A stretch of 64,000 bases of DNA from Natrinema sp. HArc-T2 (lineage in GTDB: Archaea; Halobacteriota; Halobacteria; Halobacteriales; Natrialbaceae): assembly GCF_041821085.1 (NCBI RefSeq), contig NZ_JBGUAZ010000002.1, forward strand, positions 186,001-250,000, written 5' to 3'. The translations under genes and the position numbers were made by a program. The notes under the pieces were generated by a model. It had not been told where the DNA came from. It searched no databases and saw only the letters and a program-made list of their open reading frames with translations. Of this stretch, positions 38,617 to 43,040 are shown piece after piece. Positions within the stretch are counted from its first letter, which is position 1; every line of letters begins with the position of its first letter.

Positions 38617-39792
38617 ATGAGAAGCTTCCAGATCGGGACCTTATTTGGTATTCCGATCAAGCTAGATCTGACGTTCCTGCTGGTGCTCCCGCTGTTTGCG
38701 TATCTCATCGGGTCACAGATCGAGGAAGTCGCGGGACTGCTCAACGACGGGCTCACAGCGGGAATCGATATCGGGGCGATTAGCGCCGGCCTGATGCCGT
38801 GGGCCCTCGGGTTGGCTGCAGCGATCGGCCTGTTCATCGGCGTCGTCCTCCACGAGCTCGGACACTCGTTGACCGCTCGACGGTTCGGGTTTCCGATCGA
38901 CTCGATCACGCTCTGGCTGTTTGGGGGCATCGCCGCCTTCTCGGAGATGCCCGAGAACTGGCGACAGGAACTCACCATCGCCGTCGCCGGGCCGATCGTC
39001 AGTGTCCTGCTCGGCATCGGCTCCTACATGCTCTTTTCGGTGATCCCCGCGAGCATCAGCGGTGCGCGATTCGTCTTTGGATATCTGGCTATCCTCAACG
39101 TCGCACTCGCAATCTTCAACATGCTGCCCGCATTCCCGATGGACGGCGGGCGGGTCCTCCGGGCGCTGCTGGCTCGAAATCAACCATACGCGCGGGCGAC
39201 ACAGCAAGCCGCCAGCATCGGCAAACTGTTCGCCGTCGTCATGGGGCTGTTCGGCCTCTTCTCGCTCAACATCATCCTCATCGGCGTCGCCTTCTTCGTG
39301 TTCATCGCCGCCTCGAGCGAGGCCCAGCAGGTGACGATGAAAGCTGCCTTTCAGGATATTACCGTCAGCGACATCATGACGCCGGTGAGTGATCTCCACA
39401 CCGTCGACCCCGAGACGACGATCACGGAGTTGATCCAGCGGATGTTTACCGAGCGTCATACGGGATATCCAGTCGTCGAGAACGACGCGGTCGACGGCGA
39501 GCGCCTCGTCGGCCTCGTGACGCTGAGCGACGCCCGTGCAGTCGAGCCGGTCGAGCGCGATGCATACACCGTCGATGACGTGATGACGACGGACCTGGAG
39601 ACGATCACGCCAGATTCGGACGCGATGACGGCAATCGAGCGGATGCAGAAACACGATATCGGTCGCCTGCTCGTCGTCGAAGACGACGATCTCGTTGGGT
39701 TGATCTCGCGAACCGACGTGATGACCGCCCTCAATATCGTCCAACAAAGCGGTGCGGCTGCCTTCTCCGGTCGACCGCGAACGGCGGGCTGA
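38617..39792 (+). CDS. Site-2 protease (M50) with two CBS domains
   Basis: A 391-residue intramembrane metalloprotease; I start at ATG 38617 (MRSFQIGTLFGIPIKLD). The zinc motif VVLHELGHSLTARRFG (H79, E80, H83) and the third ligand region NMLPAFPMDGGRVLRALLAR (about 165-184) are both intact. Six or so hydrophobic helices span residues 15-235. The C-terminal 140 residues hold a CBS pair (VSDIMTPVSDLHTVDPETT and VDDVMTTDLETITPDSDA), which usually bind adenine nucleotides. This is the common haloarchaeal zinc protease-CBS arrangement. Substrates are unknown. Confidence 0.92.
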   Translation: MRSFQIGTLFGIPIKLDLTFLLVLPLFAYLIGSQIEEVAGLLNDGLTAGIDIGAISAGLMPWALGLAAAIGLFIGVVLHELGHSLTARRFGFPIDSITLWLFGGIAAFSEMPENWRQELTIAVAGPIVSVLLGIGSYMLFSVIPASISGARFVFGYLAILNVALAIFNMLPAFPMDGGRVLRALLARNQPYARATQQAASIGKLFAVVMGLFGLFSLNIILIGVAFFVFIAASSEAQQVTMKAAFQDITVSDIMTPVSDLHTVDPETTITELIQRMFTERHTGYPVVENDAVDGERLVGLVTLSDARAVEPVERDAYTVDDVMTTDLETITPDSDAMTAIERMQKHDIGRLLVVEDDDLVGLISRTDVMTALNIVQQSGAAAFSGRPRTAG

Positions 39793-39977
39793 GACGGGCT
39801 ACTGGAACCATTCTTGTATCGATCGCACGCGAGTTGCGTTCGACAGGCGACGTGGCAGGACACGATCACATAAATACGCACTGGTGACGGCTATCACGAG
39901 GGCCGGGAACACACCTGTTGCAGCGGAGGATGCTGCGAACAAACGGTTTAACCGTAGCCGGGGCTGACCCTGTATCG

Positions 39978-40997
39978 ATGCCACCGGCCATCGAGACTGT
40001 CGATCTCGTCAAAGAATATGGTGAGCTACGCGCCCTCCAGGAACTGTCGCTGACCGTCGAGGAAGGCGAGTTCTTCGGCCTGCTCGGCCCCAACGGCGCG
40101 GGGAAAACGACCTTTATCAACACGCTAGTCGGGTTGGTTCGCAAAACCGGCGGCGAAGCGCGGGTCTTCGGCTACGACGTCGAGGACGACTACCAGCAGG
40201 CCCGGGATGCGATCGGGGTGGCCCCCCAGGAGTTCAACGTCGATCGCTTCTTCCCCATCAAGGAAGTGCTGATGCACAAGGCCGGCTACCACGGGATTCC
40301 CGAAGACGAGGCCGCCGACCGGGCCGACGAGGTGCTCAAACGCGTCGGGATCTACGACAAGCGCAACGAACGCTTCGACTGGCTCTCCGGCGGGATGAAA
40401 CGCCGCCTGTTGCTCGCTCGAGCCCTCGTTACCGACCCCGACCTCCTGATCTTGGACGAACCGACTGCCGGCGTCGACGTCCAGTTGCGCCACGACCTCT
40501 GGGAACTCGTGACCGAACTCAACGAGGAGGGGACGACGATCCTCTTGACTACCCACTACATCGAGGAGGCCGAACGCCTCTGTGACCGCGTCGCGATTAT
40601 GAACGAGGGGCGGAAAGTGACCGTCGCGACCCCGGACGAACTGAAAGGGCGCGGGACGGACACGGTCACCGTCGGCCTCGAGTCCACACCACAGACAGCA
40701 CCCGAACTCGGGCCCTACGCACACGAGACGACGGTATCCGGGGATCGACTCGAGGTCCGCGTCGACGATGGCGGCTCGCTTGCCCCGCGATTGCTCAACG
40801 ACCTCGAGGCACGAGGCTACGAGATCGCCGACCTCGAGATCACTCGGACCTCGCTCGAGGAGATCTTCGTCGACCTGACCGAGCGCGAGGACCGCTCCGT
40901 GACCCGTTCGACAGCCGAGAGCGCAAGCGGCGATGACGAACCCGAAACGAGCGAGACGGACACCCCGCCGAAGCGAGAACAGGAGGGGGTCGCCTGA
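39978..40997 (+). CDS. ABC-2 type transporter ATP-binding protein
   Basis: A 339-residue DrrA/CcmA-like ATPase. The start is the ATG at 39978 (MPPAIETVDLVKEYGEL). Walker A GPNGAGKTTF is at about 37-46, the signature is WLSGGMKRRLLLARAL, and Walker B is DLLILDEPTAG, with the H-loop in LLTTHYIEEAERL. The last 110 residues form the accessory C-terminal domain of this subfamily, ending in an acidic tail. Its stop overlaps the ATG of a ruined permease gene (TGATG). The working membrane partner is most likely the intact permease at 41140. Confidence 0.93.
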   Translation: MPPAIETVDLVKEYGELRALQELSLTVEEGEFFGLLGPNGAGKTTFINTLVGLVRKTGGEARVFGYDVEDDYQQARDAIGVAPQEFNVDRFFPIKEVLMHKAGYHGIPEDEAADRADEVLKRVGIYDKRNERFDWLSGGMKRRLLLARALVTDPDLLILDEPTAGVDVQLRHDLWELVTELNEEGTTILLTTHYIEEAERLCDRVAIMNEGRKVTVATPDELKGRGTDTVTVGLESTPQTAPELGPYAHETTVSGDRLEVRVDDGGSLAPRLLNDLEARGYEIADLEITRTSLEEIFVDLTEREDRSVTRSTAESASGDDEPETSETDTPPKREQEGVA

Positions 40998-41109
40998 TGC
41001 TCTCGGTCGGCTTTCGTGCGCTGTTCCGGCACGAGATGCTCGAACGACCTCGAGAACGCCTCGTTCTCGATCCGTCACGGCCACTGGAACGGGTACATCC
41101 GGAAGCAGA
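40997..41109 (+). pseudogene. N-terminal remnant of the original ABC-2 permease
   Basis: The ATG at 40997 overlaps the ATPase stop. The first 15 codons (MLSVGFRALFRHEML) match the start of a haloarchaeal ABC-2 permease. About 60 codons are then missing. The reading frame shifts by one, and the next sequence (DLENASFSIRHGHWNGYIRK) matches residues 75-92 of the intact permease downstream (AFENASFSIFHGRWNEYIHE). After that, homology stops just before the start of the intact gene. It cannot make a working protein. Confidence 0.85.
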
Positions 41110-41139
41110 ACACTCGAGATTTCTTCACAGTGATCAAGC

Positions 41140-41907
41140 ATGAGCGTTGCCAGTAGACAGCTAAAGTCGCTAATCCGACGCGAAGTACTTCGATTCGTTA
41201 GACGTCCGTACAACACGTTCCTCCCCCCACTGATAACAAACGTTCTCTATTTCTCCGTCTTTGGGGTGATCCTCGGAAGTAGAATCGGGACGATCAGTGA
41301 TGTAACCTATATCCAGTTCGTTTTGCCCGGTCTGGTCGTACTGGGTGCCATATCGAATGCCTTCGAGAACGCGTCGTTCAGTATTTTCCACGGGAGGTGG
41401 AACGAGTACATCCACGAAGTCATAACATCACCGCTGTCGCACAGTTACACGGTTGCTGGATACGTGCTAGCGAGCGCACTTCGCGGCTTCATCATTGGTG
41501 GTCTGATAATCGGTGTTGGCTTTCTCTTTACGTCAATTCCGTTCGCTCACCCGCTCTACCTGATTAGCTTCGGTGTCGTAACTACGACACTCTTTGCCGG
41601 GCTTGGAGTTATCGGTGGACTGTTCGCAGAAGACTTTGACCACCTGACGGTCATGAACCAATTCCTTCTCCGACCACTGGTGTTCTTTGGAGGCGTTTTC
41701 TATTCATTAGACCAACTCAACGGGCTGGCCTACACCGCCTCACTGCTCAACCCGATGGTCTATATGGTCAATGGAGTCCGCTACGGAATGCTGGGGATGA
41801 GTGAGATAAACCCGAATACGTCTCTCGTCGTGCTTACAGCTGCGACCATCGTCGTTCTTTTCATCAATCTGTTACTATTCAAGCGAGGGGTTGGAATTAC
41901 TGATTAG
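41140..41907 (+). CDS. ABC-2 type transporter permease (intact, probably acquired copy)
   Basis: A 255-residue permease with six hydrophobic segments, opening MSVASRQLKSLIRREVLRFV. The family pattern NAFENASFSIFHGRWNEYIH, VMNQFLLRPLVFFGGVFYSL and SLLNPMVYMVNGVRYGMLG is complete. Codon use is distinctly more A/T-rich than the ATPase and than the permease remnants on both sides. It sits precisely between the two remnants of an older homologous permease, so it has most likely taken over the role of partner to the ATPase at 39978. The transported substrate is unknown. Confidence 0.9.
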   Translation: MSVASRQLKSLIRREVLRFVRRPYNTFLPPLITNVLYFSVFGVILGSRIGTISDVTYIQFVLPGLVVLGAISNAFENASFSIFHGRWNEYIHEVITSPLSHSYTVAGYVLASALRGFIIGGLIIGVGFLFTSIPFAHPLYLISFGVVTTTLFAGLGVIGGLFAEDFDHLTVMNQFLLRPLVFFGGVFYSLDQLNGLAYTASLLNPMVYMVNGVRYGMLGMSEINPNTSLVVLTAATIVVLFINLLLFKRGVGITD

Positions 41908-41936
41908 CAGAATCGTCTACTCTGCGAGCGTGATGC

Positions 41937-42203
41937 CCGCTGGTCTTCCTCGACGCGGTGTTTTACTCCCTCAAGACACTGCCGAGGAGTTGGCAGCAGG
42001 TCTCGTTGCTGAACCCGATGGTGTTGATGGTCGACAGCGTCCGATACGGCTTCCTCGGCTACTCGGATCTGGTGCAGGTCGCACCGGCCAGTTACGAGGG
42101 GATCGTCCCGCTGGTGTCGCTCGCTGCACTGACCGTGCTGACCGCGGTCGTCGTGGGAATCGACGTGTACCTGTTCAAGACCGGCTGCAGGCTGACGGAC
42201 TGA
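41937..42203 (+). pseudogene. C-terminal remnant of the original ABC-2 permease
   Basis: Eighty-eight codons starting PLVFLDAVFYSLKTLP match residues about 179-255 of the intact permease (PLVFFGGVFYSLDQLN) and end with YLFKTGCRLTD and a stop. The piece has the high GC of the host and no start codon of its own other than an internal GTG. With the fragment at 40997-41109 it represents the original permease, now lacking residues about 16-74 and 94-178. Confidence 0.85.
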
Positions 42204-42338
42204 TAGTCTCGGGCACGGGCCCATGAGGGCCGGTCGCGTTACGAGTGCGATCGGTGTCTGCGGCGTGTCGGTCGATATCTGAAGACAGAATCGGAATGGA
42301 ACGTAACCGTTTTGACTGCCATTGTGCCTGTGTCTCAT

Positions 42339-43040
42339 ATGGGCACAGATCAAGACGTCCTCGAGGAGTTGCTCGCCGGGAACCAGCGCCACGTTGCCGG
42401 CCTCGCCGACGACCACTTCGCCGACGTACAGGACGGCCAACAGCCTGACGTCGTCTCGATTTGCTGTTCGGACTCACGTGTGCCACAGGTCGACATGTGG
42501 GACGCCGACGAGCCCGGCACGGTCTTTACACCCAGTAACATCGGCAATCAGGTCTGGGACGAGGTCGACGGCGACCTGATTGTCAACGGCGGACTGCTGT
42601 ACCCGATCGCACATGCCGACACCGAGGTCGCAGCTATCGTCGGCCACACCGGCTGCGGTGCCGTCACTGCCGCCTACAACGTGGCGACCGGTGGCGACAT
42701 GCCCGGCCCGCAGGGCGTCGACAAGTGGGTCGACCTGCTCGTCCCGGTCGTCGAGGAGGCCATCGAAAGCGGTCAGGTCGACACCGACGCGGACGACGAG
42801 ACGGTCATCAATCAGCTCGTTGAGTACAACGTCGACACGCAGGTCCAGTTCTTACGCGAGGCCGCGGACGTCCCCGACGACGTCGCCGTCTACGGCTTCG
42901 TCTACGACTTCCAGGGAATCTACGGCGACGACGGCGGTCGCACGTATCTCGTCAACTACGACGGCGAGACGGAGCCGGACACGATCGCCGAACAGATCCC
43001 CGACGAGTACGCCGACGCAGTTCGTCGGCTACTCGCATAG
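42339..43040 (+). CDS. Carbonic anhydrase, beta class
   Basis: A 233-residue zinc enzyme that interconverts CO2 and bicarbonate. The start is the ATG at 42339 (MGTDQDVLEELLAGNQRH). The zinc ligands are in ICCSDSRVPQVD (C43, with D45-R47 forming the gating pair) and VGHTGCGAVTAAY (H103, C106). GDLIVNGGLLYPIAHADTEV is the usual segment before the histidine. It is cytoplasmic. The promoter lies in the 135 nt after the permease remnant. Confidence 0.94.
   Translation: MGTDQDVLEELLAGNQRHVAGLADDHFADVQDGQQPDVVSICCSDSRVPQVDMWDADEPGTVFTPSNIGNQVWDEVDGDLIVNGGLLYPIAHADTEVAAIVGHTGCGAVTAAYNVATGGDMPGPQGVDKWVDLLVPVVEEAIESGQVDTDADDETVINQLVEYNVDTQVQFLREAADVPDDVAVYGFVYDFQGIYGDDGGRTYLVNYDGETEPDTIAEQIPDEYADAVRRLLA

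Follow-up and report, generated by a model that had tools for sequence, protein, structure and literature searches.

An Acquired ABC-2 Permease Nested in Its Native Predecessor in Natrinema: Probable Domestication of Cargo from a Site-Specific Element

Results

In the genome of Natrinema sp. HArc-T2 (G000), an intact ABC-2 permease gene, which we call X, lies within the decaying remains of the homologous native permease, behind a host-like ABC ATPase. Drawing on sequence comparison, we give a probability of about 0.9 to a history in which a site-specific element split the native permease, supplied X whole, and was then lost, leaving X domesticated. This reading is built on the insertion site, the attachment (att) repeats, the empty sites of relatives, whole elements of which some bear X and others lack it, the foreign descent of X, and the selection acting on it. 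Counted against it are that X is present in only two of the four whole elements, that element-linked X genes are scattered in the permease tree, and that the window (the whole stretch of 64,000 nucleotides that was analysed) has neither a recombinase nor attR.

An Intact Permease in the Remains of Its Predecessor

The locus opens with the partner gene, an ATPase of the DrrA type (39978..40997, forward strand, as are all features below; PF00005 and PF13732), whose TGA overlaps the ATG at 40997 that starts the native permease remnant. Two 5' pieces of the native gene follow, in different reading frames: codons 1-14 (40997..41038), where the aligned DNA match to the native gene of the congener G022 ends at 41038, and codons from about 70 to 85, or to about 90 with the attachment core included (41039..41085; a 62-bp match to G022 at 87%). 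The internal deletion that precedes the second piece has a junction common to three other Natrinema genomes, G007-G009, in the alignment. Then come the relic core of an attachment site, GGAACGGGTACATCC, which differs from GGAACGAGTACATCC by one change (41086..41100); the relic of an element left end (41101..41139), with the motif CAGAACACTCGAGATTT at 41106-41122 (one match, against 0.01 expected by chance); and X itself, of 255 amino acids (41140..41907), within which lies an unchanged copy of the core (41399..41413). A short tail of about 29 bp 3' of X (41908..41936), aligned in G007-G009 as well, is probably element-derived. The native gene resumes with its last 88 codons and stop (41937..42203; codons from about 177 on), 88.6% identical in amino acids to the unbroken gene of G022. 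Alignment at the locus shows the middle of the native gene to be missing from the window, along with the recombinase and attR, and the best recombinase match in the window genome is only 34%, on another contig.

The original prediction, of an intact permease nested in the remains of a homologous predecessor, thus has all its parts in the window; the remnant pieces that it listed are real, with the C-terminal one at 88 codons and not the 77 or so proposed. The unbroken locus is the rule among relatives: a match turns up in each of the 29 Natrinema genomes, and one unbroken native permease stands right behind the ATPase in 25 of them. G007, G008 (N. hispanicum), and G009 (N. limicola), each separately assembled, carry an X 97-98% identical to that of the window; there too it lies within remnants, and these share the 5' deletion junction of the window. 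A pair of adjacent homologous permeases could also come from tandem duplication of the native permease with decay of one copy, or from an assembly chimera; we regard either as barely credible, since X and the native gene fall in well-separated clades at 63% identity and four separately assembled genomes share the structure, which disposes of both an assembly error and a recent duplication. As a separate observation, two further genomes (G342, C1:2940968-2941730; G368, C7:12875-13708) have this permease as two overlapping pieces, perhaps through frameshifts or assembly errors, and these broken genes hold no insertion of the element type.

Origin of X and Selection on It

Family models place X over its whole length in the PRK15066/YadH subfamily of ABC-2 permeases: residues 6-218 match PF01061 (E = 9.8e-28), and the score against PRK15066 (NCBIfam) is 225.7 bits, with a cut-off of 225. 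X is 63-66% identical to native Natrinema permeases. In the tree, the X genes of Natrialbaceae form one clade within Haloarcula/Haloplanus-type permeases (support 99/96), far from the native permeases of Natrialbaceae, and the element-linked X genes are scattered over several places, so that X may have been captured by elements more than once. The ATPases follow their hosts, that of Natribaculum beside its X-less sister and that of the window beside G022.

Base composition agrees with this placement. The GC content of X in whole elements is 0.47-0.52, close to that of the elements (0.45-0.51), and the flanks stand at 0.66-0.68. Relic X genes with a clear left end have a GC content of 0.48-0.52 and those without one 0.58-0.61, as expected under gradual amelioration. 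By tree and composition, then, X is foreign and the ATPase is not, as had been proposed for a host-like ATPase with an acquired whole permease, and the idea that one subunit was replaced in place is borne out. The spacing of the genes differs too: X starts 71-422 bp past the ATPase stop, which native permeases overlap or nearly abut. Within Natrinema the dN/dS of X is 0.035-0.063, indicating purifying selection, and X is therefore in use; we infer that it teams with the host ATPase as a working transporter. We had also considered that X might carry a recoded core as a guard against re-insertion. This idea was dropped, as the core is unchanged in the window and in seven other X genes; the one to three core changes seen in low-GC X genes are due to base composition.

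Whole Elements at the Same Codons

Whole elements occupy the native permease in four haloarchaeal genomes: L042 (Halorientalis marina) and, from a class-wide search with the L042 recombinase, G120, G227, and G083. All four sit at the same codons (WNEYI) and span 3.3-5.1 kb, and each codes for a tyrosine recombinase along with COP, a small protein. In L042, the native gene is broken after WNEYI, X comes directly next, followed by a zinc-ribbon protein, an unknown ORF, the tyrosine recombinase, and COP, and the native gene picks up at NEYI about 4.1 kb later. Direct repeats of 10-15 bp, with the sequence GGAACGAGTACAT(CC), mark the element ends. When the flanks are joined, a full-length in-frame permease results in three of the four (L042, G227, and G083); in G120 the native 3' part is put out of frame by a single additional base. 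The recombinase matches PF00589 (E = 3.3e-28), with the catalytic R, HxxR, H, and Y invariant in eight relatives. The right-end pattern was found in 2 of 391 genomes, both times at the permease junction, and the reversed control gave no match. In the features tested on these sequences, the intact relatives conform to a tyrosine-recombinase integrative element, with att repeats and a target-restoring empty site; of this equipment the window, which lacks the recombinase gene, keeps only attL. Scanning viral contigs for X, for the integrase or an alignment of it, and for the right-end pattern yielded no useful match. Phage and plasmid collections contained only distant permeases and integrases, and neither the viral nor the plasmid collections had the element in free or circular form.

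In the L042 and G120 elements a complete X lies roughly 40 bp in from the left end; those of G227 and G083 have none between their att repeats, so some hosts manage without this permease and the substitution is not obligatory. These X-less elements, together with the scatter of element-linked X genes in the tree, could be taken to mean that an element only broke the gene and that X came separately, by a second insertion next to attL, without being regular cargo. We consider this unlikely: in L042 and G120 the att repeats enclose X, its distance from the left end matches that in the relics, and its base composition is that of the element.

Some further features of these elements and their relatives were seen along the way. 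The X-less G083 element encodes a protein matching PF07232, a putative rep protein (L154:12947-13732), which hints at a plasmid-like element. Relatives of the integrase/COP module lie in other protein genes, namely a GAF histidine kinase (L155:13391-16035, in G084) and an ORF that resembles a multicopper oxidase by eye (L158:10006-12152, in G298); TAAAACTTGTGTAA, the right-end motif, is seen again in these relatives, in this form or nearly so, and also in L156 and L157. The notion that all elements with this integrase bring a substitute for their target was refuted by the G084 element, as no second copy of the histidine kinase was present within the 20 kb read.

Junctions and Relics across Relatives

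X occurs at the same locus, 85-90% identical, in Halopiger, Halostagnicola, Natribaculum, and Natrialba. The same left end, about 40 bp upstream of X, recurs in six lineages: Natrinema, Natribaculum, Natrialba, Halorientalis, the archaeon QS_4_62_28, and G120. Natribaculum breve gives a clean left junction: its sister species has a native gene with no insert, and the two are 97.3% identical over 1330 bp, ending at the last base of the core. Homology of the window to the empty site of G022 stops at 41100, the same core base.

These junctions bear on the remaining alternative, already part of the original prediction, that sequence similarity between the permeases guided X into the native gene by homologous or homology-facilitated recombination. 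The two genes are indeed 63% identical and both contain the stretch ENASFSIFHGRWNEYI, and within Natrinema the flanks of X in the window lie nearer G022 and X itself nearer G009, which leaves room for a later homologous exchange at the locus. Yet X is complete and nested, with no chimera; in each of the six lineages the left junction has the 15-bp att core of tyrosine-recombinase elements and then one and the same element end, always some 40 bp ahead of X; and relatives have whole recombinase elements at that very codon. X would have come in as their cargo, set at a constant distance from the left end. Guidance by similarity is, on this evidence, improbable, a little more so than a separate arrival of X, and the element is again the preferred agent; we infer that its recombinase made the insertion in the lineage of the window.

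Within Natrinema, dS values over 38620-43040 of the window put the ATPase, a carbonic anhydrase, and the native 3' remnant nearer G022, and X and an M50 protease nearer G009; a later homologous exchange of this stretch between species is possible. Because sister species keep native genes (in Natribaculum and Natrinema), the distribution of X in Natrialbaceae suggests several separate insertions, to which exchange of the locus between species is a possible alternative. The X genes of Halopiger and Halostagnicola, with no visible scar and host-like composition, would represent an element-free state, as read from phylogeny and the gap only.

Discussion

We propose that, in an ancestor of the Natrinema group to which the window belongs, a small element with a tyrosine recombinase integrated at a specific site, the WNEYI codons of the native permease. 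Integration would have killed the native permease and left the upstream ATPase, itself unchanged, with a single whole partner: the X of the element, which starts about 40 bp in from the left end. For as long as both native halves were intact, excision would have restored the native permease. What else the element carried would then have been lost by deletion, together with attR and the central part of the native gene, and the native fragments left to decay, X surviving the decay of the element and being kept by purifying selection. X probably spread because it repairs the damage of insertion, to the benefit of the element.

An odd nest of pseudogene pieces would thus point to a mechanism by which an operon subunit is replaced through site-specific integration and not homologous recombination. 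The relatives line up as a putative stage series for the domestication of mobile-element cargo, from the whole element (Halorientalis and G120) through the clean left junction of Natribaculum and the eroded relics of Natrinema and Natrialba to the scarless, compositionally host-like X of Halopiger and Halostagnicola, and the arrangement recurs across genera and families. It would be one way for an archaeal integrase to target a protein gene without lasting cost to the host. We lean, by a modest degree, toward a broader view of a "split-and-replace" element, whose recombinase is directed at a single codon in the gene of a transporter subunit and whose cargo is a complete diverged substitute, so that the host would keep a working transporter built from its own ATPase and the permease of the element; repeated loss of such elements would leave foreign subunits fixed next to native ones and so give haloarchaeal families a site-specific way to exchange subunits.

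In fold, operon order, and family models, the transporter resembles ABC-2 exporters of the YadG/YadH and DrrAB types, but its permease subunit is of foreign origin. Islands in tRNA genes rebuild the split tRNA from att sequence. There, as apparently here, sequence inside the element makes integration tolerable; those islands rebuild the target itself, whereas here a separate homologue would be supplied.

Archaeal tyrosine-recombinase elements are known to integrate in protein-coding genes, thaumarchaeal elements among them (PMC8371274, PMC6563490). The available portions of these reports describe elements like the present ones in having a tyrosine recombinase with a SAM-like N terminus, short direct-repeat att sites, and a target within a coding gene; they have the elements disrupt the gene or sit at its 3' end, and in those portions a whole diverged substitute gene inside an element is not described. 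Nor did the partial literature searched contain an archaeal element with a whole substitute gene that was later domesticated. The domain make-up of the recombinase fits the account of SNJ2-type integrases in PMC8371274, a likeness in description. In the dusA-associated genomic islands, an integrase likewise targets one conserved protein gene and island sequence may restore its function; those islands swap only the 5' end of the target (PMC4482086), whereas the elements described here would bring a complete separate gene, beside which the native pieces decay.
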